Shown here piece after piece: positions 83 through 38,160 of a stretch of DNA of 64,000 nucleotides; the first letter of the stretch is position 1; each line of letters opens with the position of its first letter. The notes beneath the pieces were generated by a model. That model was not told the origin of the DNA, searched no databases, and saw nothing but the letters and a program-made list of their open reading frames with translations. The stretch lies in NCBI GenBank assembly GCA_037043015.1, contig CM073322.1, forward strand, positions 1,499,601 to 1,563,600, written 5' to 3'. Both the position numbers and the translations under genes were made by a program. The stretch comes from Bryum argenteum (lineage: Eukaryota; Streptophyta; Bryopsida; Bryales; Bryaceae).

Positions 83-3000
83 CTACTTGTTCAATTTGAT
101 GGTAGGCACGGGATGTTTAGCTCTTCCATCAGTGTTGCTGAAAGGAGGCTGGGTACGCTACTAGATCGCCCTCTTGCAACAAGAATGATTTGCAATAAAC
201 CTACTCACAAACTGCAGATCTTGATCTTCTTTTAAATTTCCACAAGCATGGATTGCAAGTAACTTGGACTCCCTCGCAGGTTTTGGGCGTCTCCTTCATT
301 GGCATCGTTGCATTTCTCAGGTACGCAGATCGTTTGCGAGCGTACCTCAATCATTTGATTGAAGTTTTACATCAGGTGGTTTCCTTACTTTTCTTGTTTG
401 TGTGTGTGGGTGTAGCTATGTAAGCGTGACGTTTGTGCTGGAGTCCATGGCCACTGCGAATGCCTTCCTCCAACTCAAGAAGGTACCAAACTCCTCCAAA
501 CCCTAGCATGTAGAGTTTTCGTAAAGAATCGTAAAGACGTATTCCTTTCCATGCCGTTATCATTTTTTGCTCATTCCTCTTGGGTTTTCACGGTACTGTA
601 GTCTTCCTCTACAAGTGTGATGGAGCTATCATCTTCTTCTTTTTTTGCATTCAAATCTAGAAACATGTCTCAAACCGAATCCAAGACCCTTACGTCTGCA
701 ATGGTGATAGCCTTTTCCACTTCTTGAGCTTGTAGGCCACCACTTTCATCTCATATCCAGAGGTGCTAGTGGCAAGTTTTAATTTAAAATCTAACTGCGT
801 GAAAACCCTAGTTTCAAGCAAACTGGCAAAGATGGTAAGCTTAAAGCAGAGCATTCAATTGAGTGGAGCATTTTTAACATTTGGTGTGATTGATATTGTC
901 AGGACGGGCTGGATGAATCGCTTTTGAGTGAAGAGGCAGGAACACGAGGAGGCGATGGCAATCGCAAACAAAGTGCCGACGAAGGCGACATATTCCAGAT
1001 CTCGAAGAAGATAGAGTTTGGAGAAATGGCTGTACGCTCTTACGACTTAGTCTCATTTCTATTGAGCTTTGCTATGGAAAAGTGTTGTTTTCTGAGTGGG
1101 GGTTGAGCTTTGCTATGGAAAAGTGTTGTTTTCTGAGTGGGGTTGAGCTCTGATATGGAAAAGTGTTGTTTTCTTAGGGGGGTGTTGATCTGTGCATGTG
1201 CAGGGCATGTTTTTCAATCAGTGGGGCATCATCGTCTTCTACATTGCTCTCATTGTAAGTGTCTAGAGCATTGTCTATGTGCACACATTACTTGGGGCAG
1301 GAAAAGGGTGGTTGTCTTATAGACAAAGTTCTTGTTCATTTGTCAAACACAATTTAAATGAGCTGTACATTTAAGATGTCATCAAATGTACATCTCATTT
1401 AACAAATGAATAGGGATTCTGTCCGATAAGATAATGCTGGGTTAACCCATGTAATGTAAGATCTAAAAGTAATGACAAAGTAATGACAAGAGGCTGTATG
1501 TGGGGTGAATTACGGGGTATAAGATGATTCTGAATGAAAACGAAATGTCATGTCAAGATGTTTATGGTTAAGGCAAGACAATGTGTTAGGTCATAGGTAG
1601 GGGGCTTCCTTTCCGCTTCAAAACTCTTGATTGTTTGCATCTCTTATCACGATTGTTTGTATCAATCTCTAGCACATTTAGTGTGGTCAAAAAGATGGTT
1701 CTTTTCAAAATTGTGTTTGTGGATACTTTAGTATGTGCATTGCCCATTAGAACATTGTGGTAGAGTGGATGGCTCTTAGAATTCAGCAAAACTTGCACGA
1801 TTGAAAATTTAATCATACCTTTTACTCCATATAACTATTTTCAATTGACAATGTGACTACACCTAGAGTCACAAAACCCCGTTTCTTTTTCTTTTTTTTT
1901 TATTATTATTGATTAATTTTTAATTTTTTTAATTTTTTTTTTTCCATGTTTGTGTTCTCATGTGATAAGAATCTTGTATGCAGTTGTATTTGATGGGAGA
2001 CTCACTGATCTACAGCACACTAGTTGCTCGATCATTAGCTCAGTTTTTCGTCGACCTCACTCCAGCTTCGTGGGCATTCGACATGTACCTGGGTATCTTC
2101 TTTTTCTTCAGCTTGCCTCTCTGGTAATAATTCTACATACAATTTTTGCATCATCCCTGACTCCATCACTTTCTGTTTTAACAATTTCTTCAATTGTTCT
2201 TTTTTGTTGAAGTTAAAATGGGTTCGTGGCTTATGGCAGCTACTTCGATTTCCAGAAAACCAAGCTTCTGCAAATGACTACACTCGTACGATGCCCTTCA
2301 CTTGATGTCTCTTATTTCTTGCAGTAAATGAATAAGGGGGAAAATCCTTCGACTCAACTGTAAAGTGTTCTTTATAACAACCGTTTGAGTCATATGAACA
2401 TCTATAATAAAATACTGTACGGCGATCCTTCCTACCCACGAACCTACCAACCTTTTTTATGTTTTTTGGATTATGTTCAAAAAATACAAGCATATATAAT
2501 TCTGTTTCAGGAAATGGTAAACACGGGATACTCTTTTGAAAGTACTATATAAAGAGCTCCTCGTCGAGACGACGGGTACCTTACTAGTAATAAATTTCCA
2601 CATGGTAGACTTTCTAGAGTAACCTTGGTTTTCTAGCAAATGAGATCGGCTAATGTTCCATCACTTAAACTTGGTGTATGTAGATTTTACTCACTAAATG
2701 GTTCATTTGTTGTGCAGGCAATTCGGAATATATCATTGTACATGTAAGTGCAATCTTGTTAATTTACTGTTTTGTTACATGTTTCTTGTTACTATGTCTC
2801 CGTCTGCATTGTTAATTGATGTTTTGTTTTGCAGCATGATTGGTTTGGCAATTGCTAGAAGTGTGAAAGGAGGCCGGAAAGACTCGGATGTACCAACTAT
2901 CAACTTGTCGTAAGCACATTCATACTTTTCTTAACATACTCAAGAATATCTTCCACTAAATTGTGGATTCTAGAGAGTTTGAACTTTGGATATCTTTTAA

Positions 3001-6000
3001 AACTAAGGAATGTGGCTTTGTTAAAATCCTAGAACTTTGTTGGTAATAAGCAAGAGCTTTATTTTTTTAATTTTTTTTTTTCCAGGGCATTGCCGAACCT
3101 TTTTGGAGGAGCTGTTTACTCATTCATGTGCCATCACAGGTACACTTTTCTTCTTTTCACTAGAAAATGTATGAGCTCTTACTTTCTGCAGCTGCGTTAT
3201 TGTGAAAGACTTGAAAATTGCATGATATTATGCCAATTTTAAACTATTTTGGGGCTTACACTAATAAAAACATCTGCCCAATATGTTATAGTACGATTAT
3301 TTTGAGTCATTATGGACAAGTTGTATAAGACAATTTTCTTCTGTTGTTAGTTGAGAATAATTTCTTGAACGTTGAGATCTCTTCATGAATGTACAATGGT
3401 CAGGATCTTCGTTGTTGAACAGGATAAAAAAAAATAAGATGGAAAACTTCACCTGTTTAGTTTAAAAGAATTTGTCTTGATGTAGCATTATTGTATGTGT
3501 GTAGTTTGCCTGGTATTGTAACACCAATGCGTAACAAGGCCCACTTACAACGCATCGCGGGCATGGCATACGGGTTTGTTGTTGTTGTGTACCTGGCGTC
3601 CCTGATCTCTTGCGGCTTTGCATTTGGTATGTACTTGCTTCCTCTTTTTGCATAGCATTTGGTTCATGGTTATAGCAATAGTTCTTATTGATGAGAAGCA
3701 ACCTCTCTACTTAAGGACACCTATTTACTACATAAGGGCTACTTAATTTTCTTTGATATGTTTCCTTGTCTTTGTCATTCTACCCAATTTCATAGTGAAT
3801 AATGAATCCCATCTTACAGACAATGGATTTTTTTTTAAGAGAATCTTCATGTACTACTAGTTTTGAGAACTCTTGTTGCTTGTTATGTTTGAGGACGAAA
3901 AAGTTCATCATTGCGTGCACTGGTGGTGAGACATGGTATCACCACCAAGCTGAATGATTCATTCCACCAAGCTTGATGGAACAAAACATTCTTGGTGAAA
4001 ATACTGATAGAGAACTGGATGAAAATACCACTTATTCAATAATGTTGATCATGTGAATAAACTTCACAATGCTTAGTTCTTATGATTGTACATAATGTTC
4101 ACCCAAAATATTAAATGTTTGTCATGCAGGTGTCAATGTAAAGGATCCATTGACGTTCAATTTTCCTGCGGATGGTATCCACCTTGAAAAATAATAAGTT
4201 TTGTGTCTTTGTTTGATTTTCCTTTCTAAATGCATGTTACTATTCCTTGACCAAAGATGGCAGAGTATGGTTTCATCGGCAACTTTTTATTCTTATTCCC
4301 AGGTTTGTTTCTTACAAACCAAATATATCCAATTAAAAGTTGACCTCGTGTCTTTTTAGTGTTGAACTTATTATTGTGAGTTACTAACTTTTTTTGATAT
4401 TTTGGGGTTGCCAGTGTTTACATTGACATCAACTTTTCCTATGCTCTCTATCACATTGCGCAACAACATCGAGACTTTGATCCTCTACATTACAAACAAA
4501 GGTAAGACCTCAAAATTATATGATTTGTATCAATAATAAGAACATGTTATAATTATATGTACAATAGGTTACATAGTATGTCTTATTCCGATAACCATAA
4601 GCTAGGTTATTAGATTAGTTTTAAGATGCTGCAAAATAAACTATATTATGTGTAATTAGATTCTCATCATAGATAGTGTTGATATATATTGTAAAAATCA
4701 TAAATTACAGTGTCAAGATTTACTTTAGAAAGTTCTACTCAAGCAATTGAGAGAGCAAACGTCGAATGTACACTATTTGGTCAATGTAAGTCACAAACAA
4801 TGTCTCACTTTTTTACCGTATACCTACCTTGATCCTCACATAGATATCAACCATTCAGCATTGGTGTGATGGCCACTAATTAATTCTTGGAGTCAAGAAA
4901 CGATGTCAAAAGGTTGGGCGTGATTTGAAACCCATTTGCAATTTTTTATAAATACCATTTTACATTTGATGCCTAAAATGCATAGTAGAACATTCAAGTT
5001 GGAAAACAAACAAAATGGTTGTAATCAAAACATGAAGTACAAGATTACAACCATGACGATTAATGTAACCTCGACTTGCAAGATTTTACTTGATATACAT
5101 GCTATTACTCATTGACTACTTACTATTTATTTGTTTGAGTACAGGTTCAGACTCACCACCACAAAATAACAACATTCGGCAGCTGATGCTCACTTTGTTG
5201 GCTGTTGTGCCACCCACCCTACTCAGCTTCATTGCTCATGTACAATTCCATGCCAAGCTTATCATTGCTCTAATTTGAAGTACTCTATGTAGCAAGTCTA
5301 AAATCAGCAATGTATCTTTACCCTTAAATGCCTAGTCCCTCTGAAAATACACTAAAAAGCAAGCCCGAGGGGCATGCTTCGGCGTTTAAGGGTTAAACGT
5401 TAAAGGTTGTCAAATTACACCAAAATTCATGCCCATGAGACTTGGCGTTGAGGGGTTAAACAACTTCTATCACCTCAACATGTACTACTATTGTAGATAC
5501 CTCTGTTTTAACAGTATATTTTGTTGGTTGTTGGGTATGATTATGGTATTACAATTGGCTTTATTGACAAGTGTGTGAATCGGTGCAGCGTGCAAATGTG
5601 TCCGTGGATGAGCTCGTGGGCTTCACAGGGGCGTTTGCTGGATGTGCAGTTATGCTCATCATTCCTGCTGCCTTGGTTTATTGTTCTAGAAAGTGAGCTC
5701 TCTTTCCTCCTTTTTTTTCTTTCTTTCTTGCTCTTCTTCTCACATTGATCAAGTGGTGTACACTCATTTGCTCTCTCTATAGTAAGCCTTGACACAATTT
5801 TAGTTTCTTCTATGAAACTTCCTACAGTAGATTGGACACTAATTGTGACAGGACATAGTTTGACGATTCTTGTCTACTTATTGTTATATAACATTCATAG
5901 CGTCATTCTTGCAATAATTCAAAAAAAATTCTTATGGAAGTTGAAGGTAACTTAAAATATATTGCCAAATGAAGATTGATATAATTATGTGGGACAATGC

Positions 6001-8878: not shown

Positions 8879-8949
8879 AGCGGCGAGCCAAGCAAGTTGG
8901 CTACCCATATGCCTCATGTGCGCGGGGTAATTATTATCTGTAAAATTTG

Positions 8950-10441
8950 ACACGATGTCCAAGACTGGTGGTATCCAAAGTCAAAATATGGTATTACTGT
9001 TCAGCCTGGGCCGAGCACTGTTTGAGCACTTACCGATTCTCACCCCCTTGTCAGGACTTCACATTTTTGTAACCCTCCCCACCAAGCCAACCTCTTTCTC
9101 TCTTGACTCATTGCGGCAGCGGCCGATCGATAGCTGATGGACGAGCTTTGACGCAAGCCGTGCTGAGTTGAAACACATCCTTCCACCGGCTAGACTGCAA
9201 GTGGCGGAGGGATTTGTATACGAGGTATATATTCAATCATCCATCCCGTGTATGTAAGATGCAGTTCAGACTCTTCACCTCCTAGCTTCCGTTGAATGTT
9301 TGTATGACTTCCGACGGAAAGTTTCGGACACAAAAATGATTCTCAGAGTTTGCTCAGTTTCTTAGTGTTTTTGACATCGTCGTTACGTACTGGTCAGCAC
9401 GGATCTGTTCACTTGTTTGCGAAAGGTTTTCGTGCATTTTTCTGTACATACGAGGCCGATCCTTTGGGGCTCCCCTTGCAGATCTAGTGTTGCTCGAAGT
9501 CAGGATATGCCTGACTCATGACCCATGAAAATTAATGTGTGAAACGATAGGCATGTGACGTGCTCAAATTTGTTTGCCCGTTGAAATGAAATGCAGAGGA
9601 GGTCTTCAGTCTTGAACACTGGTGCAGACGATCTAACGCGTTGAACGGTGCTTCTTGGGCGAACGCGCCCCCCTTGCACGGGTCACGGTTCAGATGCTCT
9701 CCATGCCGAGGCGCCCCGCCCGCCCTCACCTCTCTCTCTTACTCGGAGCTGTTTCATCGGTTAGCGCAAGGGTTTCGGAGGTTGTTAGATCAATCGACAT
9801 TATAATTTATATTGCAGACGCCATTTCGTAGCCTACCGATGCCGTTTGTGGCTGCGGCATTCTCCTGATCATTCAAGTGCTGGTCGACCAAGCAACTGCC
9901 TCACTGACGTGGTGATGGCTATGGCGAATCTGTTTCTTCACTAGTCGTGAGTGGTATCCTTGCGCCTACCGATGCCGTTTGTGGCTGCGGTATTCCCTAA
10001 AGCATTCCAGCGCTACATGGTGCTGGCTATGGCGGATCTGTGACAAAGCAACTGCTCCAATGAAATGGTGACATACAGGGCGGATCTATTCCTTCACTTG
10101 CCGTAAGTGGGATCCCCCCTCCTGTGATATCGACCTTCATATATGTTGGGTGCCGATCCCAAGTGTGCCATAGCATCTTCATATGATTTCTTAAGTTGCA
10201 GAGCCTATCATTTCTTATGTTCAGATGCTCTTGTTTGAGGAGTTTTACGCTAACTCTGGGCTTTTCCGGGTTCAACAGATCGCTCAAAGTTTACCGACAA
10301 GCTTCTACACACCCGGAATCGTCAGTGTCATTCTCTGCGCATGCAAGGGACTGATCTGAAGGTAGATAGCCGTTGCACAGGCTACAGCTCTTTATCGATA
10401 AGCGTACATTGTGTGACCCAGAAGAGGTTTCTAGACGGAAG
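8950..10441 (+). promoter_or_regulatory. Conserved 5' region of kinase gene A1 (promoter and leader)
   Basis: About 1.4 kb is closely matched by 30268-31785 upstream of B1, without a conserved reading frame. A pyrimidine-rich CTCTCTCTCTTACTCGG stretch near 9730 could mark the transcription start; no TATA box is obvious. Between about 9830 and 10120, a roughly 125-bp unit (GCCGTTTGTGGCTGCGG, later GGTGATGGCTATGGCG) is repeated in degenerate form. Immediately before the gene, ACACCCGGAATCGTCAGTGT and the following 90 bp look like leader sequence. Where transcription starts, and whether the leader has introns, cannot be decided here. Confidence 0.5.
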
Positions 10442-13114
10442 ATGGCCGCGAAGCAGAACGGTGCAAAGGAGCAGCAAGGCCTTAGGGCTGTAGCTGCTTC
10501 GAGTATCAGTGTGTCCCGGCAGTCGCATTTTGAGACCTCTCAGCTCACCGATGACAGGCTTGGGGAGAGTAATCCCGACGAGGGACAAGACTCAAGTATG
10601 TGAAGTAGAGCTCCTTGTGCATGATGACTTGTAACATTGTTCGTGTTGTTTGCACCAGCGTAGAGGAGAAGTATCATGCTGAATGACTTCTTTCACCAAG
10701 AAATGTATGCATGCAGCTTGGAGGAATGAGACATTGTTTGGTGAATATATTGATGTAAAGATTGGTGGAAATACTTGATGGAGAACTTATTAATTGCTTT
10801 TGTGACGATTCCATGTTAGTTTATGTGACTCATTTTGCTTGGACGTAGGGAGTGTCATGAAAGTATCTTTGTGAGACTTTGAGTGTAAATGAAGTTAATC
10901 TAGTATTTCATTTCATTATATTCTAAGCTGTTAATGTTGGGGTAATGAAGATGTTCATTTGTTCCATTTGTTTGTTGTTTTGTACAGGAGAAATGCTTGA
11001 GGAGCTTCGTAAATATTTGAAGCTTACAAAGGATTGTGTGGATGCAGTACATTCTATGTCTACTCCAAAATGTAACAATGAGCATTCTCCAAAATTCAAC
11101 AATGAGCAATGTGAATATCTTTTTGAGAAACTTAACACTTCTTTTGACGGGGCAAGGTCATTCATAGAAGAGTTCGAATCTCAACCAATGAGAATGATCC
11201 CGATTTTGGGCAAGGAAAGGTGGGCTCAAACATTCAGGCTTCTCATGGTGTCAGGCAAGCGAGTTATGCATTTCTTTGAAGAGTGTAGCAAGGATGCATG
11301 GATACAAACATCAATGATTTTAGGAAAGGTCGTGGAGTATGTTTTATACGTAGGGATGAACTTAGAGTTATGCAAACTTGCCTTTTCTGAGAAGGGAGTT
11401 GGGACTCAAACTTTAACCATGGATGAAGTGGACAAATTGTATGCAAACGAAATGATGATTGTGAAGAAGAAGGCTTTGGTTGATGCAAATGCCTTACTTG
11501 CCAAGGTTGTTAAAGAGGAAGAAACATTGGATGGTCAAGATTTGGAGTTGGCCAGGTATCTTATGTTCAAACTCAATGGCTATACGGTGAATCCAAGTTT
11601 TGCGGAGAAGGATCCAAATATCATCATGAAGATGTATGAATGGGTGAAGAACAAGGGAGAAAGAGTTGAGCAAATTGGGAAAGGAGGCTTTGCTAGAGTA
11701 TACAAGACGGAGTGGTTTGGCATACCCGTAGCAAAGAAAACATTTGATGGACCAAATGTTCAAGGATTCTTGCGAGAAGTGAAAGTGTGGGCACAGTTAT
11801 GTCATCCCAACATCACATCTATGTTTTGTTGTAATATGACGAAAAGAGAATGTTCCATTGTGATGGAATTGATGGATGGAAATCTTCATGACTTGTTGGA
11901 AAGTGGAAGAGGTGAGGAAGGGGAGTTTCTCTCGTTTCCACCTTTGGAAGGATTAGACCTAATGCTTCAAGTTGGAGAAGGAGTTGAGTACCTTCATGGC
12001 AAGGGAATTGTCCACAGGGATTTAAAGTCTCATAACATTCTCATGAAGAAGGTGGTAGTTCCGGAAACCGGGGATGTGATTGTAGCTTTGAAAGTGGCAG
12101 ATTTTGGAGAATCAAAAATGAAGGAAACGAGTTTGGCGTATACAACCATGAGCTACAATTTTGGTTCTAGTAGGTGGATGGCCCCAGAAGTTATAAAGTT
12201 CAAAAGAGAGAATCATGAAGTTGGTGAGAGGAAGATACCAAAGTATAACTTCAAAAGTGACATCTACAGCCTTGGGATGGTATTCATGGAGATATTGACT
12301 GGAGAACTACCATTTTCAAGCATTGAATTGGAAAGGGATGTAAAGAAGATGGTATTGGAGAATAAACGTCCGTCGATACCCAAGTATTGTATTCCAAGGT
12401 TGGGAGAGTTAATCAAGAAGTGTTGTAGTCAAGAGCCAAAGGAGCGTCCGTCCATTGGTGCTATTTGTTTGGAGTTGAAATACATCAAGTGCTTATTATT
12501 GATGAGTAAGTTATGACCAAAGTACATACCTTGCTAAAAATTTGTTACTAAAAAATGATGTAAAGAAGTGAGGTATGTTCATATATGCGTTCATGATTGT
12601 AAATAATTTGAGGTTGTGTTGAGTTTTAATATTTTTGATGAAAGTACAAAGAATCACATAGAACTTGTAATGATATTATTGAATTTTTTAGCTTTGTTGC
12701 AATAGGAATTATAAATCCCACATCAAATAAGTGAAGGGCAGTGGAGTAGTAGATCACACTATGATTACAGTTATTCAATAGTTGCCAATGCCTTCTTAGG
12801 CAATGATTTGTATGGAGTATTGTTGACTCCAATATGTTGAAAACTTTGGTATTTAAAGGGTTGGATTATATATTGTTTCCGAAGGTTTTTCCAACTCTTG
12901 TTTTGGTAACAAATTCTTAACTTAGTAACAATTGTCCGAACCTTGTTTTGAAGGTGGATTTTCTCAAGGAGGTCCAAGCCTTAGCATGGGAGAACCATAT
13001 GATGAGGAAAATCCACCCGAGCGAGAGACTCGCCTTCGGCATATGAATCACTTTCTGCGTTCTGAGAAACGCCTTCTACAATATGGTATTTGGATATCTT
13101 GCAAATCTTTTTGA
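10442..13114 (+). CDS. Kinase A1: DUF1221/plant-MLKL-type N-terminus plus complete protein kinase
   Basis: Exons 10442-10595, 10988-12505 and 12954-13114, joined by phase-1 introns, give 610 residues. Residues about 53-260 form an all-helical region of the DUF1221 kind that precedes the kinase in plant MLKL-like proteins. The kinase domain (about 277-550) has a GKGGFARV loop, the beta-3 lysine in VAKK (K301), the HRDLKSHN loop (D396), DFG (D423) and APE, so it should be catalytically active and of TKL type. The last exon (SGFSQGGPSLSMGEP, then an acidic-basic tail) is supported by the strong donor GA|GTAAGTT and by the same arrangement in B1. B1's start codon is absent here; ATG 10442 is the next in-frame one. 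A non-spliced reading would end at 12516. Tandem partner A2 starts 375 bp downstream. Confidence 0.85.
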
Positions 13115-13488
13115 GAATTCTTTTTAAGGATTTGATGTTATATGTGAGCTTTATGATCATGATCATTCACATTGGATAACAAAGTAGTTTTCACTTCAAA
13201 GTGTATACCATGCTACTTATATCAATGTGAGAATGATACTACCTCAAGTGTTAATATCCTCTTGTTATATGTGTTAATTTTGTCCATTCTTAGTATAGAT
13301 TAGGGTAATAATAAATGAAAAGCATGCATTATTGTGAAGGAAGATATTATTTTTGGGTTCTCAAACATGGGACATAGTTTACCATTTTTGTATTGGTGAA
13401 CAATGTTGGTGTAATTTGTGCTAGTCAAATCAATAGTTACCCATGTCTTACTTCATTACTTCATGTCTTGACGACAGTATTCGTGGTG

Positions 13489-15376
13489 ATGAGCATGGAG
13501 AACGTCAAGGGCTCAAAAGCGATTATTTGCAATGTCAGCGACAAAGCCGACCACGTGTCCATGAACAAGAACCAGTGCAAGTTGTTGGCTCGGCGCTTTC
13601 AACAAATGGGCCACGCACTGGAGAATGCCAATACCTCATCGTGGCATCTACATGCCTTGGAACGTATTTGTATGCTTTTGCAAAAAGGAGAGACGTTGGT
13701 TGATGGTTATAAGGGCAGATACAAGGCGCTAGCCAATGCACTGGCTCGAGGAGTAAATACAAAAGCTTTCAATGAGATTCACGAACTACTAGACCACTTG
13801 AAGTCCGTGCTCTACTGGTCGGATGATGAAAACGTCACTCAGGAGGTTGCTGCACAGAATGATTTGAACACGATCATTCAGGACCTGGACAACCTCAACT
13901 TGAATGAAGAGCTCGATGTCAACATGAGCGATGTGAAGAGGGTGATCCTCGACAGAGTCCACCAAGGTGAGCACATCAACTCGATGCAGTTAGCATGTAA
14001 AATTGATCGATTATGTTTTTCCTCACCAACCAAATATGTAAGTCGACCTAAGAAATTGTATCATGTCATTTTTTACGAAAACTCAACCACTGTCTCTATT
14101 CGTAACACGTGATGTCCAAATTTGATATGCAACGTGTGTTCGATTGGAGAATCATTTTGTTCAGGATATGAGAAACCCAGTTACAGAAAGTAATGGTAAC
14201 CTTGATACGAAGTCAATTATTGGCAGAGGTAGTTTATGTACAAAACTGATGGTTTGTTCAGATGCGGTACCTGACTACGACCTGAGCTACCTGCACATGC
14301 CAATGTCCGCAATCGTGCTGGGACCTCCCATCAAGCCCTTACCCGTTTTGATGAACATGCGAGATGCGCATTTGGAAGAACTGCCGGTGTTTCACAAGGG
14401 CACGTGGAATGGATGCGAGTACGCCATAGAGATGTTTATGTCCAGTGATCGGATCGAGGCATTCCAGAAGGTAATACCGTCTCTTGTGAAGCTCCGACAT
14501 CCTCATATCACGCAGGTCATCGGCTGCGCTCAAGAAGAAGACAAGACATACGTGTTGTATGAGATGATGGATAATGATCTGCGAGACCTCATGCATGCCC
14601 GCTTTCAGAAAACAAAATCTAGAAGTCGGCCTTTCAACCCCTTGGAAGAGAGGAGCATCATGTGGCAGATTGCAAAAGGAGTGTTGTACTTGCACCAGCA
14701 GGGGATTGTTCACGGTGAGCTCAAATGCGCCAACGTGCTGGTGAAACAAGTTGGTGACGACATCGACGTGAAATTATCTGGCTTTCACCGCTCTATGGAG
14801 CTCGGAAGTAATGAGCGGTACAAACCTAGACATCGAGCACGGTGGTTGCCTCCTGAAGCTTTTGGGCATTTTGATTTGGAGTGCCCACCTGCCCATGATG
14901 TGCTAAAGCAAGGCGATGTCTACAGCTTTGCCATGACCTGCTACGAAGTTCTGACAGGACATTATCCTTATGACGACGTCCGTGGGGACGACGTTATCAA
15001 GGAGATGGTTCTCAAAGGTACGAGGCCAATGCTGCCTTATGGTTGGAGGGACGAACTGCACAATCTCATTGCAGAGTGTTGGTCTGAAAAACCTGAGGAT
15101 CGACCGACTTTTGAGGAAATTTGTTACTCCTTGCAGTTGGTTTCTCTGTCATGGATAACAGGAGTGCCTAACCTTTTCTCCGGCTCCCCTGAAACTGGCA
15201 GTGCAGCAGCCGTTCTACCCGACAAAAATCAAGTGTGGCCGAAGTTGACAAGAGAGAGCACATCGAAAGCGAGTGGTGAACCAGAGAGGGTAGTGGAGGG
15301 TCTTCCTTGCTTTCTGAACATACAGCCGGCGAAGCTGAAACGGCTGAAAGAACTCGGTCGGGGGGATTCTGCATAA
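13489..15376 (+). CDS. A2: MLKL-NTD-like helical domain plus pseudokinase, cut short by a stop codon
   Basis: Exons 13489-13966 and 14262-15376 (phase-1 intron) give 530 residues. Residues 1-159 form a helical bundle with the NKNQCKLLARR signature resembling the MLKL N-terminal domain. From 160 on comes a kinase fold lacking catalytic residues: the beta-3 lysine is E (AIEMF; B2 has K), HRD is HGE, DFG is SGF, while PPE and DVYSF remain. The reading frame stops at TAA 15374-15376, where B2 has CAA; the frame then stays open to 16141. The product would therefore lack the second kinase domain. It could be a functional short form or an early pseudogene; the rest is well preserved. In the last intron the frame is open from 14144, so an alternative start there is possible. 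Confidence 0.75.
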
Positions 15377-16141
15377 GTGTGGGAAGTCACCTGGATTGGG
15401 TGCAAATTTGCAGCGAAATATCTGGAATCAGACCATGTGTCCAAGCTCCGTCACGAAGTGGACATGAGGATGAAGCTCCTGCACCCGCATGTGGTACGAC
15501 TGGTGGGATTCGCCTCTGAAGGCAACCGATGCGCGATCGTTATGGAGTTGATGGAGCAGTCCCTGCGGGACTTCATGAACGAGAAAACGAAGGAGGGCGC
15601 GAGCACACCATTCTCGGAAGCAGAAGCGATTGCCATCATGACCAAATTGGCACTTGGGATGGATTTCATGCATTCGCGAGGAGTAGCACACGGCGACCTC
15701 AAGTGTGCCAACGTCCTGGTTCGACATTTAGAGTCGATGAGCGAACACAACATACTGGATGTGAAGCTTGTAGACTTTCACTTAGCTCATTTGGGTAGCG
15801 TGGTGGATACTAAACCGCATATAGTTGGTCAGTTTCGAGCACCCGAAGTTATCAGGAGCATGAAATCAAAGACACCGCCGTATGACCTAAAGGCTGCGGA
15901 TGTGTTTAGTTTCGGATTGATGTGCTTGGAGATCATCATTGGCAAGCTACCTTTCTACGACATATTCGACGGCCTTGCAGAAGCTAGAAGTCTGGCCCAA
16001 TGGCTAGAACGCTTCGAAGTGCGAGATGAACTGTGGAACCTGCTGAGAAGATGCTGGTCCGTAGAGCCCGAAAGGAGGCCAAAGTTTCCAGAAATCTGCA
16101 CAATACTGACAACCATGTCCCCGAAGCCGCGAGAAAGTTAA
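15377..16141 (+). pseudogene. Stranded second kinase domain of A2
   Basis: The 254 codons continue in the same frame after the A2 stop and align over their length with the C-terminal domain of B2. They keep the beta-3 lysine (FAAKYL), HGDLKCANVL, a DFH in place of DFG, RAPEV and a DVFSFG helix. No promoter or start of its own is evident, so expression would need readthrough, re-initiation or an allele lacking the stop. The 650 bp downstream match the B2 3' flank closely. Confidence 0.75.
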
Positions 16142-16779
16142 CTCGTAACCAGCTCACTCTCTTGCCTCTTCTCATGTCGACGTGGGAAGATTTCGGTAGG
16201 TTACTATGTAGATGTGCTCACCTCAGGGCACAAAGGGGTTGTTTTTACTTACATATAGAAAACTTGTGCATAACGCGTGAGTGTGCTTGTAGCGTGGGGA
16301 CGAAACATGTGCTCTTGCACATGCTGTTCCAGATAAGTATCCAGTATCAATTTGACAAGCTTCTGTAGACAGATCCCTATCGACAGATTGTTAGCCGCAT
16401 TTCCCTCAATGTCGATTAGTGACAGTATGCCCTTGGAGACCTCTAATCATCTTGGTTAACGTATGTCGATGATCGACGACAGTCTCATGACATTCTCACT
16501 CTGTACAATCCTTTCGCAATGAGTGTTTGTAGCATTGATTTTTGATTATGGGTACCTGAAGCGAATATTTCCGGGAGTGATCATTCATCTCACTATCGAA
16601 GTAACAAATGGTGCAGAATAACCTAGAATTGTTATCGAGAAACATAAATTTTCTCAGGAAAAATCGTGTGCATTGATGTTTACAATTACGACAAATCGAA
16701 GTTTCAAACCCCAGTTTTTGGACAGTTTTGAGTACTTACTGAGCAAAGAATCTCTACGAAACAAATAAAGGTAAGTCAG

Positions 16780-18240
16780 TGTAGGCCTTCACCTACATTA
16801 TGTTAGAGCAACAAAGATATGTTTTTACTTGGTATGCCATAAGTTACAATTTATGTTTGTATGCAACTCATATTTAAATTTGTAGTGTGGTATTATTTGA
16901 ACTATGTCAATATAAAAACATCATGTGTCTCATCATGGTTGTAAAGGTTCAACTCATACCACCATAAAGTAGCAACAATCGAGATCTGATGCTCACTTTG
17001 CTGGATGTCAATCCTGCTGAGTTTTAATGCTCATATTCACTTCCGTACCTAGCTTATCTATTTTGGATATTTCAATCTAATTATTATCTGCTTGTTGATA
17101 TCTTTGCTCTAATTGAAGTATTCTCTACGATCATTTGACAAGTGTGTGAATGGGTGCAACGTGCAAATGTATATGTAGTTGAGTTGATGGGCTTCAAAGG
17201 GGCGGTTTGTTGGATGTGCAGTTATGCTCATCATTCCTGTTGCCTTGGTTTATTGTTCTAGAAAGCAAGGTCTTTCTCCTTTTTCTTCTTGCACTTATTT
17301 AAACAACTAGTTTCGACTTGTCTTTCTAATAACTTGCCTCATCAACTTATGTACGCGTATAGTCCAATGACGTATTGAATTATCAAGTTTTTGTACTCAC
17401 TTTTATGATAGATAACAATGAAAATGAATTATTTGATTCGGGTTATTCATTACTCTCTTGTTCCCTTCTACTAGTTTTAGTATGATAAAGCATAGCAATC
17501 CTTTTCTTCTTATTGCTTAATAACATTCAAACTTTTTAATACAGATGTTCTTTCAGTAGTTAAACTCTCTTGCATTAAGGAAGACTTACTTAAATTGGTG
17601 TTGTACCTAGATTTTTTTGACTGGCGCTCTAATAGATTCTAGTTTTGGAGCATGTGCTATAGCCTTAAATACAAAACTCATCATGTTTTAGATTTGAATC
17701 TAGAATCTTAATAACATTTGCATATGATTAGTTATTTGGTGTGTTTGGGATCCACTTACAAGGATGTGAAAAAAGGATGAGTTCAATAGGAAATAGGCAC
17801 AAAAGCAAAAGTCACAAATTTATGTGCTTCATACTTAAGTTTGTTTTGAAGTTAAGGATATCAACTAAATTATACTCAATTATGTGGCATTAAGATTCCA
17901 TGTATATTTTTTGCGAAAGTGCACAATGTTCCTTAGAGTGTGGAATTCAACAAATAATCATTATTCCGAAGCCGGTCAACTTCCATCACTCTCTCGTTGC
18001 AATTTTAACAAGGTTGGGACCCAGAGATATTAGAAAGACTAGAGTAGGTGCACAGATCGTTATTAGAAAAATGAGTGCACACATCTCCCACATTTTTAAC
18101 ACGTACGAATAGAGTTTCTTGAATTTTATTAGGGTAGTGCTCTAGGAATAAGCCCAAGCCCGTAGTGATACTTGCCATTAAAGACCTTGTTTTAAAAAGG
18201 TCTATTTTCAAGATATTGTACCTATCTTTTTTCACCATGT
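16780..18240 (+). pseudogene. Decayed copy of the TMEM104 3' exons (locus A)
   Basis: Three exon remnants can be recognised in order. About 16984-17035 resembles exon 5145-5239, about 17153-17268 resembles 5589-5692 (GGATGTGCAGTTATGCTCAT is identical) and about 17930-18015 resembles 6003-6118. The post-stop sequence around 18183-18220 resembles 6205-6240. Frames are broken by substitutions and indels, and the upstream exons are missing. It is the tail end of the duplicated unit. Confidence 0.75.
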
Positions 18241-20080
18241 TTTTAGTGATTTAAACCTGTTAGCAGGACGTTGGGTTTTCAGAAGAATATTCCATTTTGG
18301 TAAATGCGAGCTTTTCATCACTATTTAAAGAGTTCAGAAAAAAAAGTTGCATTTGACAATCCACGTATTAAGATGCATTCAAAAAGATAGTTTATTTTTC
18401 TCGTGGAGTTTTTGAAGGGGCACAATATGATCTTGAAGTTGCTCTTTGGAATCTTTTGGCATTGTGGCCGTCCAACAAATTAATTTATTCAATTTCTTGT
18501 AATATTAATTAGGGTCACTTTGACTCCTAGAGTTTTGTAAAATATGTATCGATCTTCAAGGGTTTTTATTAGCCTAGTCTCACCCTCTTTTGACCTTTGT
18601 GATCTCAAAAGCAAAAGGGCATTCTCGATTGAAAATTGAAACATAACTAGTAAATTTATTCTCCTTTGAGATCTTGGAGTTGAATTTATGAAATAAATAT
18701 TGAGGTTTAGAAGGCATGTACTTCCAAAAAGTCAGTTTTGACGATTCATTGAATTTGCAACACGAAAATTTAGGGGTCATGTGCACACTTTTGGTTGAGT
18801 CTTCACTCCCTTACACATTTTTTTTGAGCTTGCTCTTGCCAAACACATCGAGTGTTGACATTCAATATTTAGGATGACAAGTTGAAACTTGAAGAGACAT
18901 ACTTTTTCATCCAAAGCCAACTTTTCAACAATTGTTTTTGGATTCAGACCCAAATCAAGTTTAGCTTGTGTGGTCAATAATAAGTTTTCGTAAGTAAAAT
19001 GGTTTTGTATCAAAGAACTTAATAATGATTGGAATTACATAAAGCAATTAGCTAATAGGTAAGCAAGTAATTCTAAAAGGAAAGTTATCATGTCATACAT
19101 GTGCCAAGTCCTTTGTGAGTGATACTCAGTAAGACAATGATTGAGAGCACTTAAGAATTCTTAGAATCTTGTGTACAATGACCAATCACCAAGAAGACCT
19201 TTAGTTTTTCAAAGGTTGAATTGATTGATCATAGTTGCTTGGAACTCAATGTAAAAAAATACTTACTTCTTACTGTACAGCTAATCATTTACTAAGAGTA
19301 GATGTTAAAATCAAGTATAGTAGTCCTACAACTCATTAATACATTCTAAGCTCTGACTTCTCAAGTTCAAAATAGAAAGTTTGTTATTAACGAAATTTGT
19401 GTTGTTGAATCTCGAATCAAGTTTAAATTTTATATGTCGATTTATTAGAGGAGGAATATAATCTTAAGAAAGAGCTTCTAATTTATTTAACATAAGATAT
19501 CTTTGGAAGCCAATCATTTGAATCACAAATAGGTAATGAAAGTCATTGTATCAATTGACAAAAGTATGATTTTAACCCGGCACTTTGAATGAAATGCTGT
19601 AATTTTGAAAAGCCATACCTTCTTCATCTAAATTATGTTTTATGACGAAATCAATTGGGTTGGGTCTCAAAATAAGTCTAGTTTGTGTGGTAAAAATTGT
19701 AGAGTCATACTATAGAGTATGAATTGATTGCATGTATTTTAGTGAAGGCAACCTTCGGTAAAGGGTTTCAAACATAATGCAACCAATTACATGTAAAGAA
19801 ACATGGTTTCCATGAGTTTTATTTCATACAAATATGTTCTAGTAATGAATCCCAATAAATTATAGTTGGAAGCAGTTAAATCCAAATGATTATGGTATTG
19901 GATTTGCAATGAATGTTTCTAATTGGAAAAAAGTAAAAAATGGATGAAACCCATTTTTGGGATGAAACCCAGCTAGAGTCTTATTCTAGTGGTCAAGTTT
20001 GATCCAATCATAGGTGTTGTGAAGGGGCTTGTAAATTTTACTAGAAGGTTCACAAGTCAAAATACATGACTATACTTTAG
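18240..20080. repeat. 3' flank of the duplicated unit, paired with 40110-42060
   Basis: AT-rich sequence matches 40110-42060 in order and orientation, including GGATGACAAGTTGAAACTTG near 18870 and TTAGCTAATAGGTAAGCAAG near 19050. No coding frame is conserved. The part after about 19570 also resembles the dispersed repeat at 42.1-42.8 and 60.0-60.8 kb. Confidence 0.65.
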
Positions 20081-25134: not shown

Positions 25135-25254
25135 GGAAAGTCCTAAGTTTCTCACGTGCGTGACATTTCACTTCTGCTTCATAAACATAAGGGGTAGAAG
25201 ATGATACTTTCACCCTTTGTCTAGAAGGGGATTTCTCCCAAAGTGTGGTCAGAA

Positions 25255-25560
25255 GGACAGATACAAGTTAGGCTCTAGCCAATGCACTGTCTTGAGAAGT
25301 AAATCATAAAGCTTTCAACGAGATTCACGAACTACTAGAATACTTGAAGTCTGTACTCTACTGATCGGATGATAAAATCGTCACTCACGAGGTTGCAGCA
25401 CAGAATGATTTGAACACGATCATTCAGAACCTGGACCGCCTCAACTTGAATGAAAAGCCCCAAGTCAACATGAGCGATGTGAAGAGGGTAATTCTCGACA
25501 GAGTCCACCAAGGTGAACACATCAACTCAATGCTGTTAACATATAGAATTGATTGATTAA
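25255..25560 (+). pseudogene. Relic of an A2/B2-type first exon (MLKL-NTD-like segment)
   Basis: The stretch matches the second half of exon 1 of A2 and B2, from the ALAN segment to GACAGAGTCCACCAAGGTGA and a little intron sequence beyond. Several in-frame stops interrupt it (for example TGATCGGATGATAAAATC). No kinase domain follows; a SINE does. It shows that at least one further kinase unit once lay between loci A and B. Confidence 0.8.
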
Positions 25561-25689
25561 TGTTTTTCCTGACCAACCAAATGTGTAAGTCCCCTTTTGT
25601 AGTGGGAGAAAAGAGGATTTCTCCTAAAATTGTAAAGGTGTTGAGTTTTAATGTATGCTTTTAGCAAAGGCGAGGTGATGTGAGTAAAG

Positions 25690-30215: not shown

Positions 30216-30264
30216 AAGTTTCTACCCTTCATCCAAAATGTCGTTGGCCGGCTGACATTATTAT

Positions 30265-31785: not shown

Positions 31786-32471
31786 ATGAAGCGTAAGCGT
31801 CCATTGTGTGATCCAGAAGAGGTTTCTAGACGGTGGATGGCCGCGATGCAAAACGGTGCAGAGGTGCTGCAAGGCCTTAGGGCTGGAGCTGGTTCGAGTG
31901 CCAGTGTGTTCCTGCAGTCGCATTTTGAGACCTCTCCGCTCACCGATGACAGGCTTCGGGAGAGTAATCCCGACGAGGGACAAGACTCAGGTATGTGAAG
32001 TAGAGCTCCTTCATTGTGCATGATGACTTGTCACATTGTTTGTGTTCTTTGCATGGTATTTTATTCACTAGTAAGGTCCCCGTCGGCCGGACGGAGAAGC
32101 ACTTTACATGGTACTTTAAAAAAGTCTCTCTTGTCTTCCATAGTTCCATTCCATATTATTTTTATATAAGCCCATGTTTTTAAGAAAAATATACAATTCT
32201 AATTTACATAATCCAAACAACATAAAAGTAGGTAGGTAGATAGGTTGGTTGGTAAGTTCATAGGATGGTAGGTTGGTACATTGGTGGGTAGGAAAGTTTG
32301 GTTGGTAGGAAGGTTTGGTAGGTAGAAAGGATATCCAGATGAGGATCTAATTCTGTTATATATATACTAGTAAGGTCCCCGTCGTCTCGACGGGAAATGT
32401 CTTTTCATGGGAATTTTAAAGAAGTATCCCGTGTCTACCATTTCTCAAACCATGTTCTTCTTTCTTTCTTT

Positions 32472-32551
<80 letters not shown>

Positions 32552-35066
32552 ATAAGCCAAAAACATAAAAGAAGGTAGGTAGGTTGGTAAGTTCGTAGGT
32601 CGGCAGGTTTGTCTCTTGGTAGGTTGGTACATTGGTGGGCCAGAAGGATCGCCTTACAGTATTTTATTATATATAGATAGATGTTGAATGACTTATTTCA
32701 CCAAGAAATGTATGCAGCTTGGAAAAACGAGACATTTTTTTGGTGGAAATATTAATGTAAAGAAATTAATATTGGTGGAAATACTTTTGGAGAGCAAAGT
32801 GGAATGTATCACACTTTCCTACTACTGTTGTGACGTTTCCATTTCCTACTACTATTGTGACGTTACTATGTTAGTTTGTGTAACTCATTTTGCTTGGACA
32901 TTGAGAGTGTTATGAAAATATCTTTGTGAGACTTGAGGTGTAAATGAAGTTAATCTAGTATTTCATTTCATTTTATTCTAAATTCTTAATGTTGGGTTAC
33001 TTAAGATCTTCAATTGTTTCATTTGTTTGTTGTTTTGTATAGGAGAAATGCTTGAGGAGCTTTGTAGTCTATATTTGAAGCTTACAAAGGATTGTGTGGA
33101 TGGAGTGCAATCTATGTCTGCTCCAAAATTCATCAATGAGCAATGTAAATACCTTCTTGAGAAACTAAACATTGCTTTTGAAACGGCAAGGTCATTCATA
33201 GAAGAGTTCAAAGCTCAACCAATGGAAAGGTGGGCTCAAACATTCAAGCTTCTCATGGTGTCAGGCAAGCGAGTTATGCATTTCTTCGAAGAGTGTAGCA
33301 AGGATGCATGGATACAAGCATCAATGATTCTAGGAAATGCGGGAGAGTATGTTTTTTATGTAGGGATCAACTTAGAGTTATGCAAACTTGCCTTTTCTAA
33401 TAAGGGAGTCGTGACTCAAACTTTAACCATGGACGAAGTGGACAAATTGTATGCCAACGAAATGATGATTGTGAAGAAGAAGGCTTTGGTTGATGCAAAT
33501 GCCTTACTTGCCAAGGTTGTTAAAGAGGAAGAAACATTGGATGGTCAAGATTTGGAGTTGGCCAGGTATCTTATGTTCAAACTCAATGGCTATATAGTGA
33601 ATCCAAGCTTTGCAGAGAAGGATTCAAATTTTATCATGAAGATGTATGAATGGGTGAAGAACAAGGGAGAAAGAGTTGAGCAAATTGGTAAAGGAAGCTT
33701 TGGTACAGTATACAAGATGTCATGGTTTGGCATACCAGTAGCAAAGAAAACATTTGATGGACAAAATGTTCAAGGATTCTTGCGAGAAGTGAAAGTGTGG
33801 GCACAGTTATGTCATCCCAACATCACATCTATGTTTTGTTGCAATATGACCAAAAAAGAATGTTCCATTGTAATGGAATTGATGGATGGAAATCTTCGTG
33901 ATCTACTGAAAAGTGGAATAGGTGAAGGAGGGAATTTTATCCCATTTCCACCTTTGGAAGGATTAGACCTAATGCTTCAAGTTGGAGAAGGAGTTAAGTA
34001 CCTTCATGGCAAGGGTATTGTCCACAGGGATTTAAAGTCTCACAACATTCTCATGAAGAAGGTGGTAGTTCCGGAAACCGGGGATGTGATTGTAGCTTTG
34101 AAGGTGGCAGATTTTGGAGAATCGAAGATGAAGGAATTGAGTGTTGCGTATACAGCCCAGACCTACAATTTTGGTACTAGTAGGTGGATGCCCCCAGAAG
34201 TTATAAAGTTGGAAAGAGAGAATCGTGAAGTTTGTGAGAGGAAGTCACCAAAGTATAACTTCAGAAGTGACATCTATAGCCTTGGGATGGTATTCATGGA
34301 GATATTGACAGGAAAACTACCATTTGAAGGTATTAAAGAAATGGATGTAAAGAAGATGGTATTGGAGAATCAACGTCCCTTGTTACCGGAGTATTGTATT
34401 CCAAAGTTGGGAGAGTTAATCAAGAGGTGTTGGAGTCAAGAGCCAAAAGAGCGTCCGTCTATTGGTGATATTTGTTCGGAGTTGAATTATATCAAGTGCT
34501 CCTTATTGATGAGTAAGTTTTTAACAAAGCATGTACCTTGCTAATAGTTTGTTATGAAAAGATGATGTAAAGAAGTGAGGTATGTTCATATGTGCGTGCG
34601 GTTATGGTTGTAAATATATTGAGATTCAGTTGAGTTTGAAAATTTAGTGATGAAAGCACAAATCATCGTAAAGAATTTGTAAAGATATTGTCATTTTTTT
34701 AGTTTTATTGCAAAAGGAATTATACATCCCACTTCAAATAAGTCAAGGGCATTGAAGTTTTAGTAGCTCACACTATGATCACAATTACTTAATAATTGCC
34801 AATTGATGTGTTTTTTAGGGAATCATTTGTATGGAGCATTATTGACTCTAGTATGCTCCAATATGCTGAGAATCTTTGTGTTTGAAGGGTTGAATTAGAT
34901 TTTGTATCCAATAGTTAGTCCAACTCTTGTTTGACAGTTCATAACATAGTAACAATTGTCCAATTTTTGTTTTGAAGGTGGATTTTCTCAACAAAATGCA
35001 AGCCTTAGCATGGGAGGACCATGTGTTGTGCAACATGGTAAGGATCGTAGGATGAGCAGTGTGTGA
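31786..35066 (+). CDS. Kinase B1: DUF1221/plant-MLKL-type N-terminus plus complete protein kinase
   Basis: Exons 31786-31990, 33043-34512 and 34978-35066 (all phase 1) give 587 residues. The start MKRKRPLCDPEEVS is well placed after the conserved leader. The helical N-terminal region is followed by a full kinase: GKGSFGTV loop, K303 in VAKK, HRDLKSHN (D398), DFGES, a PPE in place of APE, and DIYSLG. It is a close paralogue of A1; B1 lacks about ten residues that A1 has near PMRMIPILG. Intron 1 is about 1.05 kb because two Helitrons and an AT microsatellite have entered it; A1 has 392 bp. The third exon tail differs from A1 after SLSMGGP. A plain open frame would end at 34544, but the GA|GTAAGT donor is shared with A1. 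B2 follows 397 bp later. Confidence 0.87.
32068..32681 (-). mobile_element. Two adjacent Helitrons in intron 1 of B1
   Basis: On the minus strand both end in a hairpin plus ACCTTACTAG (plus-strand CTAGTAAGGT at 32068 and 32367). The second begins TCTATATATAATAAAATACTG near 32677-32681. The first lacks a clear 5' end, as if the second had inserted into it. Neither is present in the A1 intron, so they arrived after the duplication. GTAGGTTGGTA-type minisatellite units fill the interiors. Confidence 0.68.
32473..32547. repeat. (AT)n microsatellite
   Basis: An uninterrupted run of about 37 AT units lies inside the second Helitron of the B1 intron. It is likely to vary in length between individuals. 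Confidence 0.95.
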
Positions 35067-35462: not shown

Positions 35463-38160
35463 ATGACGATGGCGTACGTCGAGGGCATAAAAGTGATTAT
35501 TCGCATTGTCAGCGACAAAGCCGACCGCGTATTCGTGAACAAGATCCAATGCAATTGGTTGGCTCGGCGCTTTCAACAAATGGGCCAGGCACTAGAGAAT
35601 GTCGATATTTCATCTTGGGATGTATGTGCCTTGGAACATATTCTTTGGGTTTTGCAGAAAGGAGAGACGTTGGTTGATGAATACAAGGACAAATACAAGG
35701 CGCTAGCCAATGCAATGTCTCGAGAAGTAAATCAAAAAGCTTTCAACGAGATTCACGACCAACTAGACTACTTGAAGTCCGAACTCTACTGGTTGGAAGA
35801 TGAAAATGTAACTCAGGAGGTTGCTGCACAGAATGATTTGAACACGATCATTCAAGACCTGGACCACCTCAACTTGAATGAAGACCCCCAAGTCAACATG
35901 AACGATGTGAAGAGGGTGATCCTCGACAGAGTCCACCAAGGTGAACACATCAACTCACTGCTGTTAACATATAAAATTGATTGATTATGTATTTTCTGAC
36001 CAACCAAATATGTAAGTCTAAGATGTTGTATCATGTCATTTTGAGAAACTCAACCATTCTATTTGTAACACGTGATATCAAATTTGATTTGCAAAGTGTG
36101 TTTGATTTGTGAATGATTTTTTAAAAGTTTAGAACATGAGGAACCCAGTTACCGAAAGTAATGGTAATCTAGATACAAAGTGAATTATGGGCAGAGGCTG
36201 TTTATGCACTGCATTGTGACCTTCTACTGATGGTTTGTTAGAAATCGGGGGTTCAGATGCGGTACCTGACTACGACCTGAGCTACCTCCACATACCGATC
36301 TCCGCAATCGTGCTGGGACCTCCCATCAAGCCCTTATCCGCCTTGATGACCATGCTAGGTGCGCATTTGGAAGAATGGCCGGTGTTTCACAAGGGCACGT
36401 GGAATGGATGCGAGTACGCCATAAAGGTGTTTATGTCCAGTGATTGGATCAAGGAGGCATTCCAGAAGGTAATACCGTCTCTTGTGAAGCTCCGACATCC
36501 TCATATCATGCAGGTCATCGGCTGCGCTCAAGATGAAGACAAGACATACGTGCTGTATGAGATGATGGATGGTGATCTGCGAGACCTCATGCAAGCCCGC
36601 TTTCGGAAAACAAAATTTAGAAGTCGGCCTTTCAACCTTAGAAGTCGGCCTTTCAACCCCTTGGAAGAGTGGAGCATCGTGTGGCAGATTGCAAAAGGAA
36701 TGTGCTACTTGCACCAGCAGGGGATCGTTCACGGTGAGCTCAAATGCACCAACGTGCTGGTGAAACAAGTTGGTGACGACATCGACGTGAAAGTATCTGG
36801 CTTTCACCGCTCCAGGGAGCTCGGAAGTTATGAGCGGTACAAACCTACACATCAAGCACGGTGGTTGCCTCCTGAAGCTTTTGGGCATTTTGATTTGGAG
36901 TGCCCACCTGCCCATGATGTGCTAAAGCAAGGTGATGTCTACAGCTTTGCCATGACCTGCTACGAAGTTCTGACAGGAGATTATCCTTATGATGACGTCT
37001 GTGGGGACGACGTTATCAAGGAGGTGGTTCTCAAAGGTACGAGGCCAATGCTGCCTTATAATGGTTGCGACGACCTGAACAATCTCATTGCAGAGTGTTG
37101 GTCTGAAAATCCTGAGGATCGACCGACTTTTGAGGAGATTTGTTACTCCTTGCAGTTGGTTTTTCTGTCATGGATAAAAAGAGCGCGTTCCTCTTTCTCC
37201 GGCTCCCAAGAAACTGGCAGTGCAGCAGCCGTTCTACGCGACAAAAATCAAGCGTGGCCGAAGTTGACAAGAGAGAGCACATCGAAAGCGAGTGGTGAAC
37301 CAGAGAGGGTAGTGGAGGGTCTTCCTTGTTATCTAAACATACAGCCGACGAAGCTGAAACGGTTGAAAGAACTCGGTCGGGGGGATTCTGCACAAGTGTG
37401 GGAAGTCACCTGGATTGGGTTCGAACTTGCAGCGAAATATCTAGAATCAGACCATGTGTCCAAGCTCCGTCACGAAGTGGACATGAGGATGAAGCTCCTG
37501 CACCCGCATGTGGTACGACTGGTGGGATTCGCCGCTGAAGGCAACCGATGCGCGATCGTTATGGAGTTGATGGATCAGTCACTGCCGGACTTCATGAACG
37601 AGAAAACGAAGGAGGACGCGAGCACACCATTCTCGGAAGCAGAAGCGATTGCCATCATGACTAAATTGGCACTTGGGATGGAATTCATGCATTCGCGAGG
37701 AGTAGCACACGGCGACCTCAAGTGTGCCAACGTCCTGGTTCGACATTTAGAGTCGATGAGCGAACACAACATACTGGATGTGAAGCTTGTAGACTTTAAC
37801 TTAGCTCATTTGGGGAGCGTGGTGGATACTAAACCGCATATAGTTGGTCGGTTCCGAGCGCCCGAAGTTATCAGGAGCATGAAAGCAAATACACCGCCGT
37901 ATGACCCAAAGGCTGCGGATGTGTTTAGTTTCGGAATGATGTGCTTGGAGATCACCACTGGCAAGCTACCTTTGTACGACATATCGGACGGCCTTGCAGA
38001 GGCTAGAAGTCTGGCCTATTGGCCAGAATGCTTCGAAGTGCGAGATGAACTGTGGAACCTGCTGAGTAGATGCTGGTCCGAAGAGCCCGAAAGGAGGCCT
38101 AAATTTCCAGAAATTTGCAGAATACTGACGGCCATGTCCGGGAAGCCGCGAGAAAGCTAA
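35463..38160 (+). CDS. B2: MLKL-NTD-like domain, pseudokinase and second kinase domain in one protein
   Basis: Exons 35463-35940 and 36257-38160 (phase 1) give 793 residues. Residues 1-159: helical bundle with the NKIQCNWLARR signature, similar to the MLKL N-terminal domain. About 175-450: pseudokinase with lysine (K216) but HGE for HRD (318-320) and SGF for DFG. About 525-790: second kinase fold with GRGDSAQV loop, K553, E566, HGDLKCAN (D646, N651), DFN (D672) and APE; the key acidic and lysine residues survive, so weak activity is possible. Pseudokinase followed by kinase in one chain is the layout of JAK kinases and plant tandem kinase proteins. A 24-bp tandem duplication (36619-36660) adds a second RSRPFN. 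Paralogue A2 is truncated at residue 530. No separate promoter is evident in the 0.4 kb after B1. Confidence 0.88.

Follow-up and report, generated by a model that had tools for sequence, protein, structure and literature searches.

The closest described relatives of the genes considered here are plant proteins that join an MLKL-type N-terminal domain (NTD) to a kinase, and single-chain proteins with two kinase domains. The former comprise MLKL_NTD-kinases, DUF1221-kinases and the fusion Pm13 of Aegilops longissima, which unites an MLKL_NTD with a kinase that has all of the key residues and is of the receptor-like leucine-rich repeat (LRR) kind LRR_8B; the same source terms the Arabidopsis MLKL proteins pseudokinases (PMC10951266, accessible portion). 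A review speaks of the plant MLKL family across seed plants (PMC9950082, accessible portion), and MLKL is listed among the proteins associated with nucleotide-binding leucine-rich repeat receptors in the species tested in PMC11218826 (accessible portion). The latter, the tandem kinase-pseudokinases (WTK1/Yr15, RPG1), were defined in a study that included Physcomitrella among the genomes searched; according to its accessible portion, none of the 92 proteins of this kind has an additional conserved domain (PMC6170490). Here we describe a locus of Bryum argenteum that carries two genes, B1 and B2, side by side in two tandem copies. B1 encodes a helical N-terminus followed by one kinase, and B2 a helical N-terminus followed by two kinase folds. 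The window, that is the whole stretch analysed, covers 64,000 nucleotides (C2:1499601-1563600, C2 being our label for contig CM073322.1 throughout) of a genome of 258.8 Mb in 25 contigs. We think it probable that B1 and B2 are members of one superfamily that became adjacent once and were later duplicated, and that each protein is an MLKL-like switch.

Domain composition of B1 and B2

The N-terminus of B2 is best judged by its family. Three of the six B2-type proteins examined combine a match to Pfam MLKL_N (PF22215) above the curated cut-off with two kinase domains in one open frame (L043, 39.6 bits; L044, 32.8 bits; L045, 29.4 bits). They are also the top three of the 22 matches in a whole-genome MLKL_N scan, 7 of which lie above the cut-off, and the sister gene of the window B2 (C2:965369) passes it with 29.2 bits. 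MLKL_N is matched at E<=1 by 6 of the 9 aligned B2 bundles (best 1.1e-11). A 9-member B2 bundle profile retrieves animal MLKL first from the PDB (E=0.0023), and 8 of its 15 matches at E<=10 are MLKLs. The MLKL-NTD-like N-terminus that a preliminary description of the locus had proposed for B2 is thereby supported as an MLKL_N type, through the family members above the Pfam cut-off and this profile search.

For B1, a plant-MLKL/DUF1221 type is supported by an indirect profile route. Profile A6 contains 8 of the 19 B1 N-termini and five N-termini from other kinase genes of the same genome, three of these five showing weak similarity to DUF1221 themselves (E from 2.8e-5 to 0.0015). It places two PDB entries first, 6ka4 (E=2.3e-6, residues 12-216) and 6lba (E=5.4e-4), the remaining three of its five matches starting at 0.19. 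These entries, titled F22L4.1 protein and Protein kinase family protein, are taken here to be the two solved Arabidopsis MLKLs. The five rows that are neither B1 nor B2, used alone as a bridge profile, match the window B1 bundles (6e-18 and 5e-20), two B2 bundles (2e-5 and 3.5e-8) and 6lba (1.8e-7), and none of 1000 shuffles reached any of these scores. The full B1 profile likewise finds 6ka4 (205 bits) and 6lba (200 bits) before the next entry (158 bits), and the B1 brace and kinase are collinear with AtMLKL (profile 153-491 on 6ka4 183-513, 202 bits). The DUF1221/plant-MLKL N-terminus claimed earlier for B1 therefore stands as homology to the solved Arabidopsis MLKLs, seen with A6 and the bridge profile, and falls as a Pfam DUF1221 assignment, since neither DUF1221 nor MLKL_N of Pfam is matched at E<=1 by any of the 19 B1 members.

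This last result is one of several that weigh against the two assignments. The best DUF1221 score in the genome scan is 21.9 bits (cut-off 25), in a gene other than B1, and the B1-only N-terminal profile A2 retrieves nothing from the PDB at E<=10. Because A2 alone and Pfam give no match, the B1 domain call rests on the bridge profile. The copy 1 bundle of B2 scores 18.6 bits with MLKL_N, under the cut-off of 27 (E-value in Table 1), that of copy 2 has no MLKL_N match at E<=1, and the other three of the six B2-type proteins (L046-L048) have none at E<=0.1. NCBIfam gives no match for the bundle and only generic kinase matches in the two kinase proteins. Profiles A1 (B2 bundles) and A2 (B1) cross-match poorly: the score of A2 on the B2 bundles is reached by 15 and 1 shuffles of 1000, that of A1 on the B1 bundles by 83 and 132. 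AlphaFold models of the N-termini, built on two-sequence alignments from the window, are all-helical with a mean predicted local distance difference test score (pLDDT) of 45.3 for B2 and 39.8 for B1. A fold search with the low-confidence B2 model returned nothing at E<=0.001, nor did an MLKL appear among the top 50 matches listed; as the model is poor, this search is not usable, and the models speak neither for nor against the bundle fold.

The N-termini might then be generic helical regions whose matches reflect composition. The low-confidence models and the failure of A2 alone in the PDB would agree with this, as would the 10 of 24 shuffle tests in which at least one shuffle of 1000 reached the real score (2 for A2-L008, 3 for A1-L006, 6 for A1-L008; against human MLKL, 54 for A2, 300 for the bridge profile and 8 for A6). 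However, no shuffle did so in the other 14 of 24 tests, several family members lie above the Pfam cut-off, and A6 puts the two Arabidopsis MLKLs ahead of everything else in the PDB. We regard this explanation as very improbable. In a separate test with a piece of 6lba that had been picked by a B1 profile, the score of A2 was equalled or exceeded by 7 of 2000 shuffles and that of A1 by none of 2000.

The kinase domains were compared by their catalytic residues. HRD and DFG are both present in 17 of 18 B1 proteins, including the two window copies (L026 lacks both; L013, L028 and L029, broken or partial, were excluded from the count), and on these residues the B1 kinase appears active, as had been claimed. 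Kinase 1 of both window B2 proteins reads HGE and SGF(H), without either catalytic aspartate, and in copy 1 additionally AIE for AIK, which agrees with the pseudokinase announced for B2. Kinase 2 of the window copies retains both aspartates (HGD and DFH in copy 1, past a stop codon; HGD and DFN in copy 2). The two B2 relatives on C2 have HGE and SDFH in kinase 1 and HGD and DFG in kinase 2. An exact DFG is absent from kinase 1 in all 10 B2 proteins read. Against a uniform division into a dead and a live kinase stand the six relatives on C10 and C5. Their kinase 1 reads HGD and GDL with both aspartates present, so that it is degenerate rather than plainly dead, and their kinase 2 reads HRD and DFG in 5 of 6 proteins, L043 (HRN) having lost the HRD aspartate.

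In a tree of 52 kinase domains all 20 B2 domains form one group (100/98), in which kinase 1 (100/98) and kinase 2 (94/90) are separate. This topology points to one internal duplication, and the two folds most likely derive from an old event inside the protein. Two features of the tree speak against a simple reading: within the kinase 2 group long branches are flagged by the program, and the Arabidopsis MLKLs are unplaced and not grouped with B1, the forks being weak and open. In the PDB the B2 kinases find 6ka4 (109.8 bits) and 6lba (103.2 bits), narrowly ahead of the next entry (102.2 bits).

A related arrangement was noted in L064 (C2:16228800-16232600). Its frame of 893 codons (335-3013) encodes an N-terminus weakly similar to DUF1221, a kinase in which HRD and DFG are present and, read by eye, a second kinase-like stretch of the HGE type, the order being reversed relative to B2. 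This gene perhaps represents a second, independent origin of the two-kinase layout.

The tandem duplication and its gene copies

Self-comparison of the window identifies a tandem duplication of about 11 kb, in which 8930-19947 adjoins 30257-41924. The two-gene stretch 10676-16770 is 86.5% identical to 32681-38789 over 6,245 columns, and further matches flank it (8930-10654/30257-32053, 16772-17166/39170-39565 and 18154-19947/40039-41924). Each copy carries B1 then B2, both on the + strand, as expected from the duplicated same-strand unit of the preliminary description. The distance of about 0.4 kb given there is too short: the B2 bundle exon has its first in-frame ATG 0.97 kb behind the B1 stop in copy 1 and 0.92 kb behind it in copy 2. 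An extra B2 first exon, a short frame at 12990 with which the distance would be smaller, was ruled out because it is not kept in copy 2.

The B1 exons join in frame in both copies (Table 1), giving 560 amino acids in copy 1 and 551 in copy 2. The B1 intron measures 1,052 bases in copy 2 (31991-33042) and 392 in copy 1 (10596-10987), reflecting an insertion or a loss. The B2 frame is open throughout in copy 2 (793 amino acids), where the putative bundle and the two kinase folds described for both loci are indeed found. In copy 1 it ends after 530 codons (from coordinates) at an in-frame TAA that the preliminary description had not noticed, so that no single chain with two complete kinase folds is encoded by this interval. 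A third, broken piece of the B2 bundle also lies in the window.

Table 1. Positions of B1 and B2 gene features within the window
Feature	Coordinates	Strand	Description
B1 copy 1 exon 1	10442..10595	+	51 codons and 1 base, GT donor; in-frame splice; indel-free alignment to copy 2
B1 copy 1 exon 2	10988..12516	+	helical N-terminus of putative MLKL/DUF1221 type; brace; kinase (HRD, DFG)
B2 copy 1 bundle exon	13489..13966	+	159 codons and 1 base; MLKL_N-like, E=0.0014
B2 copy 1 exon 2 until stop	14262..15373	+	kinase 1 (pseudokinase: AIE, HGE, SGF), linker
B2 copy 1 stop TAA	15374..15376	+	located at the kinase 2 glycine-rich loop; copy 2 reads CAA
B2 copy 1 kinase 2 remnant past stop	15377..16141	+	HGD, DFH
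Third, broken B2 bundle exon fragment	25246..25591	+	87.6% to 13704-14044; three internal stops
B1 copy 2 exon 1	31837..31990	+	alignment to copy 1, in-frame splice
B1 copy 2 exon 2	33043..34544	+	N-terminus of putative MLKL/DUF1221 type; brace; kinase (HRD, DFG)
B2 copy 2 bundle exon	35463..35940	+	73% identity to copy 1; by itself without an MLKL_N match at E<=1
B2 copy 2 exon 2	36257..38160	+	kinase 1 (pseudokinase: HGE, SGF), kinase 2 (HGD, DFN); stop-free

The ratio of non-synonymous to synonymous divergence (dN/dS) was estimated with NG86 and YN00, as figures without a significance test. Between the window copies it amounts to 0.47-0.55 for B1 and 0.64-0.77 for B2 kinase 2. The B2 bundle (0.96-1.47) and kinase 1 (1.17-1.43) show no clear constraint, a point against the account favoured below. 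Outside the window, all five B2-type pairs compared (8 genes) have a dN/dS below 1 (NG86 0.34-0.66, YN00 0.34-0.84). The B2 form thus seems to be kept elsewhere in the genome and to be relaxed or diversifying here. It is possible, if rather unlikely, that the window genes are leftovers of a birth-and-death process, with B2 decaying and the pair having no present function. The TAA of B2 copy 1, the third broken fragment, the TAG that interrupts the B2 relative at C2:992k and the dN/dS close to or over 1 in the bundle and kinase 1 are all consistent with such a course. On the other hand, B2 copy 2 is open across 793 codons, B1 looks constrained, and an immune gene under diversifying selection would give the same picture.

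Silent divergence is uneven along the unit (10988-16141 compared with 33043-38160; NG86). The synonymous divergence dS is about 0.15 in B1 and the B2 bundle and 0.06-0.08 in the B2 kinases, a pattern such as gene conversion might leave.

Elsewhere in the window, a frame with a helix-loop-helix domain lies on the - strand (56062-56550; PF00010, 28.1 bits, cut-off 20.7), and 51207-52146 and 57855-59016 form a second duplicated stretch with 91-92% identity.

Distribution of B1-type and B2-type genes in the genome

Genome searches at E<=0.01 gave 21 matches for the B1 bundle and 11 for the B2 bundle, one of the latter being the fragment in the window. With B2 kinase 1, 11 genes were obtained before a drop from 7.6e-47 to 7.8e-41. 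A B1-type gene is found nearby in 2 of the 11 B2-type genes, both of them window copies (2.4-2.5 kb start to start). None of the nine B2-type genes elsewhere in the genome has a B1 type within 370 kb (the nearest is at 375,526 bases), and hence the other 19 B1-type matches also have no B2 type nearby. The closest relatives of B1 in the tree are on C6, a contig from which the searches gave no B2 type. The conserved pair envisaged in the preliminary description thus fails within this genome. Since both window pairs stem from one duplication, their adjacency counts as a single event: B1 and B2 became neighbours on one occasion, and this arrangement was later copied.

The same arrangement could be read as a working pair like those of immune receptors, with B1 phosphorylating B2 and the linkage being kept by selection and duplicated as a unit. 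The two genes are on the same strand, less than 1 kb apart and duplicated together, and B1 looks constrained (dN/dS 0.47-0.55). Moreover, about 0.001 such neighbours are expected under uniform chance, so that even one adjacency exceeds what pure chance would give, a point against our account. However, the nine other B2-type genes and the 19 other B1-type matches are unpaired, the B2 of one pair is broken, and a single duplication accounts for both pairs. A query with the N-terminus of L050 gave 39 matches distributed over many contigs, and 32 of these lie in frames of at least 500 amino acids; judged by sequence similarity, this N-terminus type belongs to a large MLKL/DUF1221-type superfamily of this genome. 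With so many superfamily genes, a B1/B2 neighbourhood is less surprising than under uniform chance, and one event is no demonstration of selection for linkage. A working pair appears improbable to us. The analogy with RIPK3-MLKL signalling that had been drawn also fits poorly because B1 itself carries an MLKL-type N-terminus.

One B2-type gene on C10 (C10:2475k) has other neighbours. Directly upstream and on the same strand lies a long LRR frame and, 0.3 kb on, a kinase frame with HGD and DYG (L053 6819-8600/L043 3-2156, C10:2.47 Mb), 28-34% identical to the B1 kinases. The stretch before this kinase gives short B1-like matches (41-62% over 17-27 residues, E 0.01 or worse). As these N-terminal matches are only short, this kinase was not counted as a B1 type.

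Proposed function and comparison with known systems

The gene structures, family ties, catalytic residues, duplication and unpaired state of the relatives are observations, whereas the fold of the bundle, its action at a membrane and a part in immunity or cell death are inferred. In the account that we favour, B1 would be the single-kinase form with an intact-looking kinase and B2 a rarer form with the layout MLKL_N bundle, degenerate kinase, kinase. After the two genes had become neighbours, the tandem duplication of about 11 kb would have copied both, and one B2 copy would afterwards have lost kinase 2 through the stop codon. Each protein would act alone as an MLKL-like switch whose kinase part restrains the helical bundle. 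Upon activation the bundle would assemble at a membrane and lead to cell death or to an immune output. The degenerate kinase 1 of B2 may regulate kinase 2, or may sense attack on kinases.

A more specific reading, which we put forward as speculative, is that B2-type proteins are one-chain death switches of a seedless plant. The HeLo/MLKL bundle would be the executor and the degenerate-kinase-plus-kinase module the sensor and trigger, B1 being the general executor of the system. If true, this switch would join functions that tandem-kinase resistance proteins and MLKLs hold separately. To our knowledge, it is not settled how tandem kinase proteins bring about cell death, and a natural fusion of an MLKL-type bundle with a tandem kinase module would connect these proteins with MLKL cell death. 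Such a fusion would also place kinase-active MLKL relatives, in increased number (39 matches to one such N-terminus), outside seed plants.

Among known systems, the Arabidopsis MLKLs (6ka4, 6lba) are the best PDB match of B1, which likewise has an N-terminal domain, a brace and a kinase in this order. Unlike them, B1 keeps HRD and DFG, and it has no Pfam DUF1221 match. Pm13 resembles B1 in that a single protein carries an MLKL-type bundle and an intact-looking kinase. That kinase belongs to the receptor-like LRR_8B kind according to PMC10951266, and it is single whereas B2 has two. With animal MLKL, B2 shares a family bundle that matches MLKL_N, followed in the window copies by a pseudokinase. 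Animal MLKL, however, lacks the second kinase of B2, and the neighbour B1 is MLKL-like and not RIPK3-like. The tandem kinase-pseudokinases resemble B2 in having two kinase folds per chain, derived in B2 most likely from internal duplication, one fold being dead in the window copies. Two kinase domains, one of them dead, in a single chain are found in B2 copy 2, copy 1 being cut by the stop. Unlike the tandem kinase-pseudokinases in the accessible portion of PMC6170490, B2 has a putative MLKL_N bundle in front. A fusion of MLKL_N with tandem kinases was not found in the literature searched (titles and abstract openings, with few subscription journals), and against this background the layout of B2, MLKL_N followed by a degenerate kinase and a kinase, appears as an unreported variant, and B1 as a further member of the known plant-MLKL kind.

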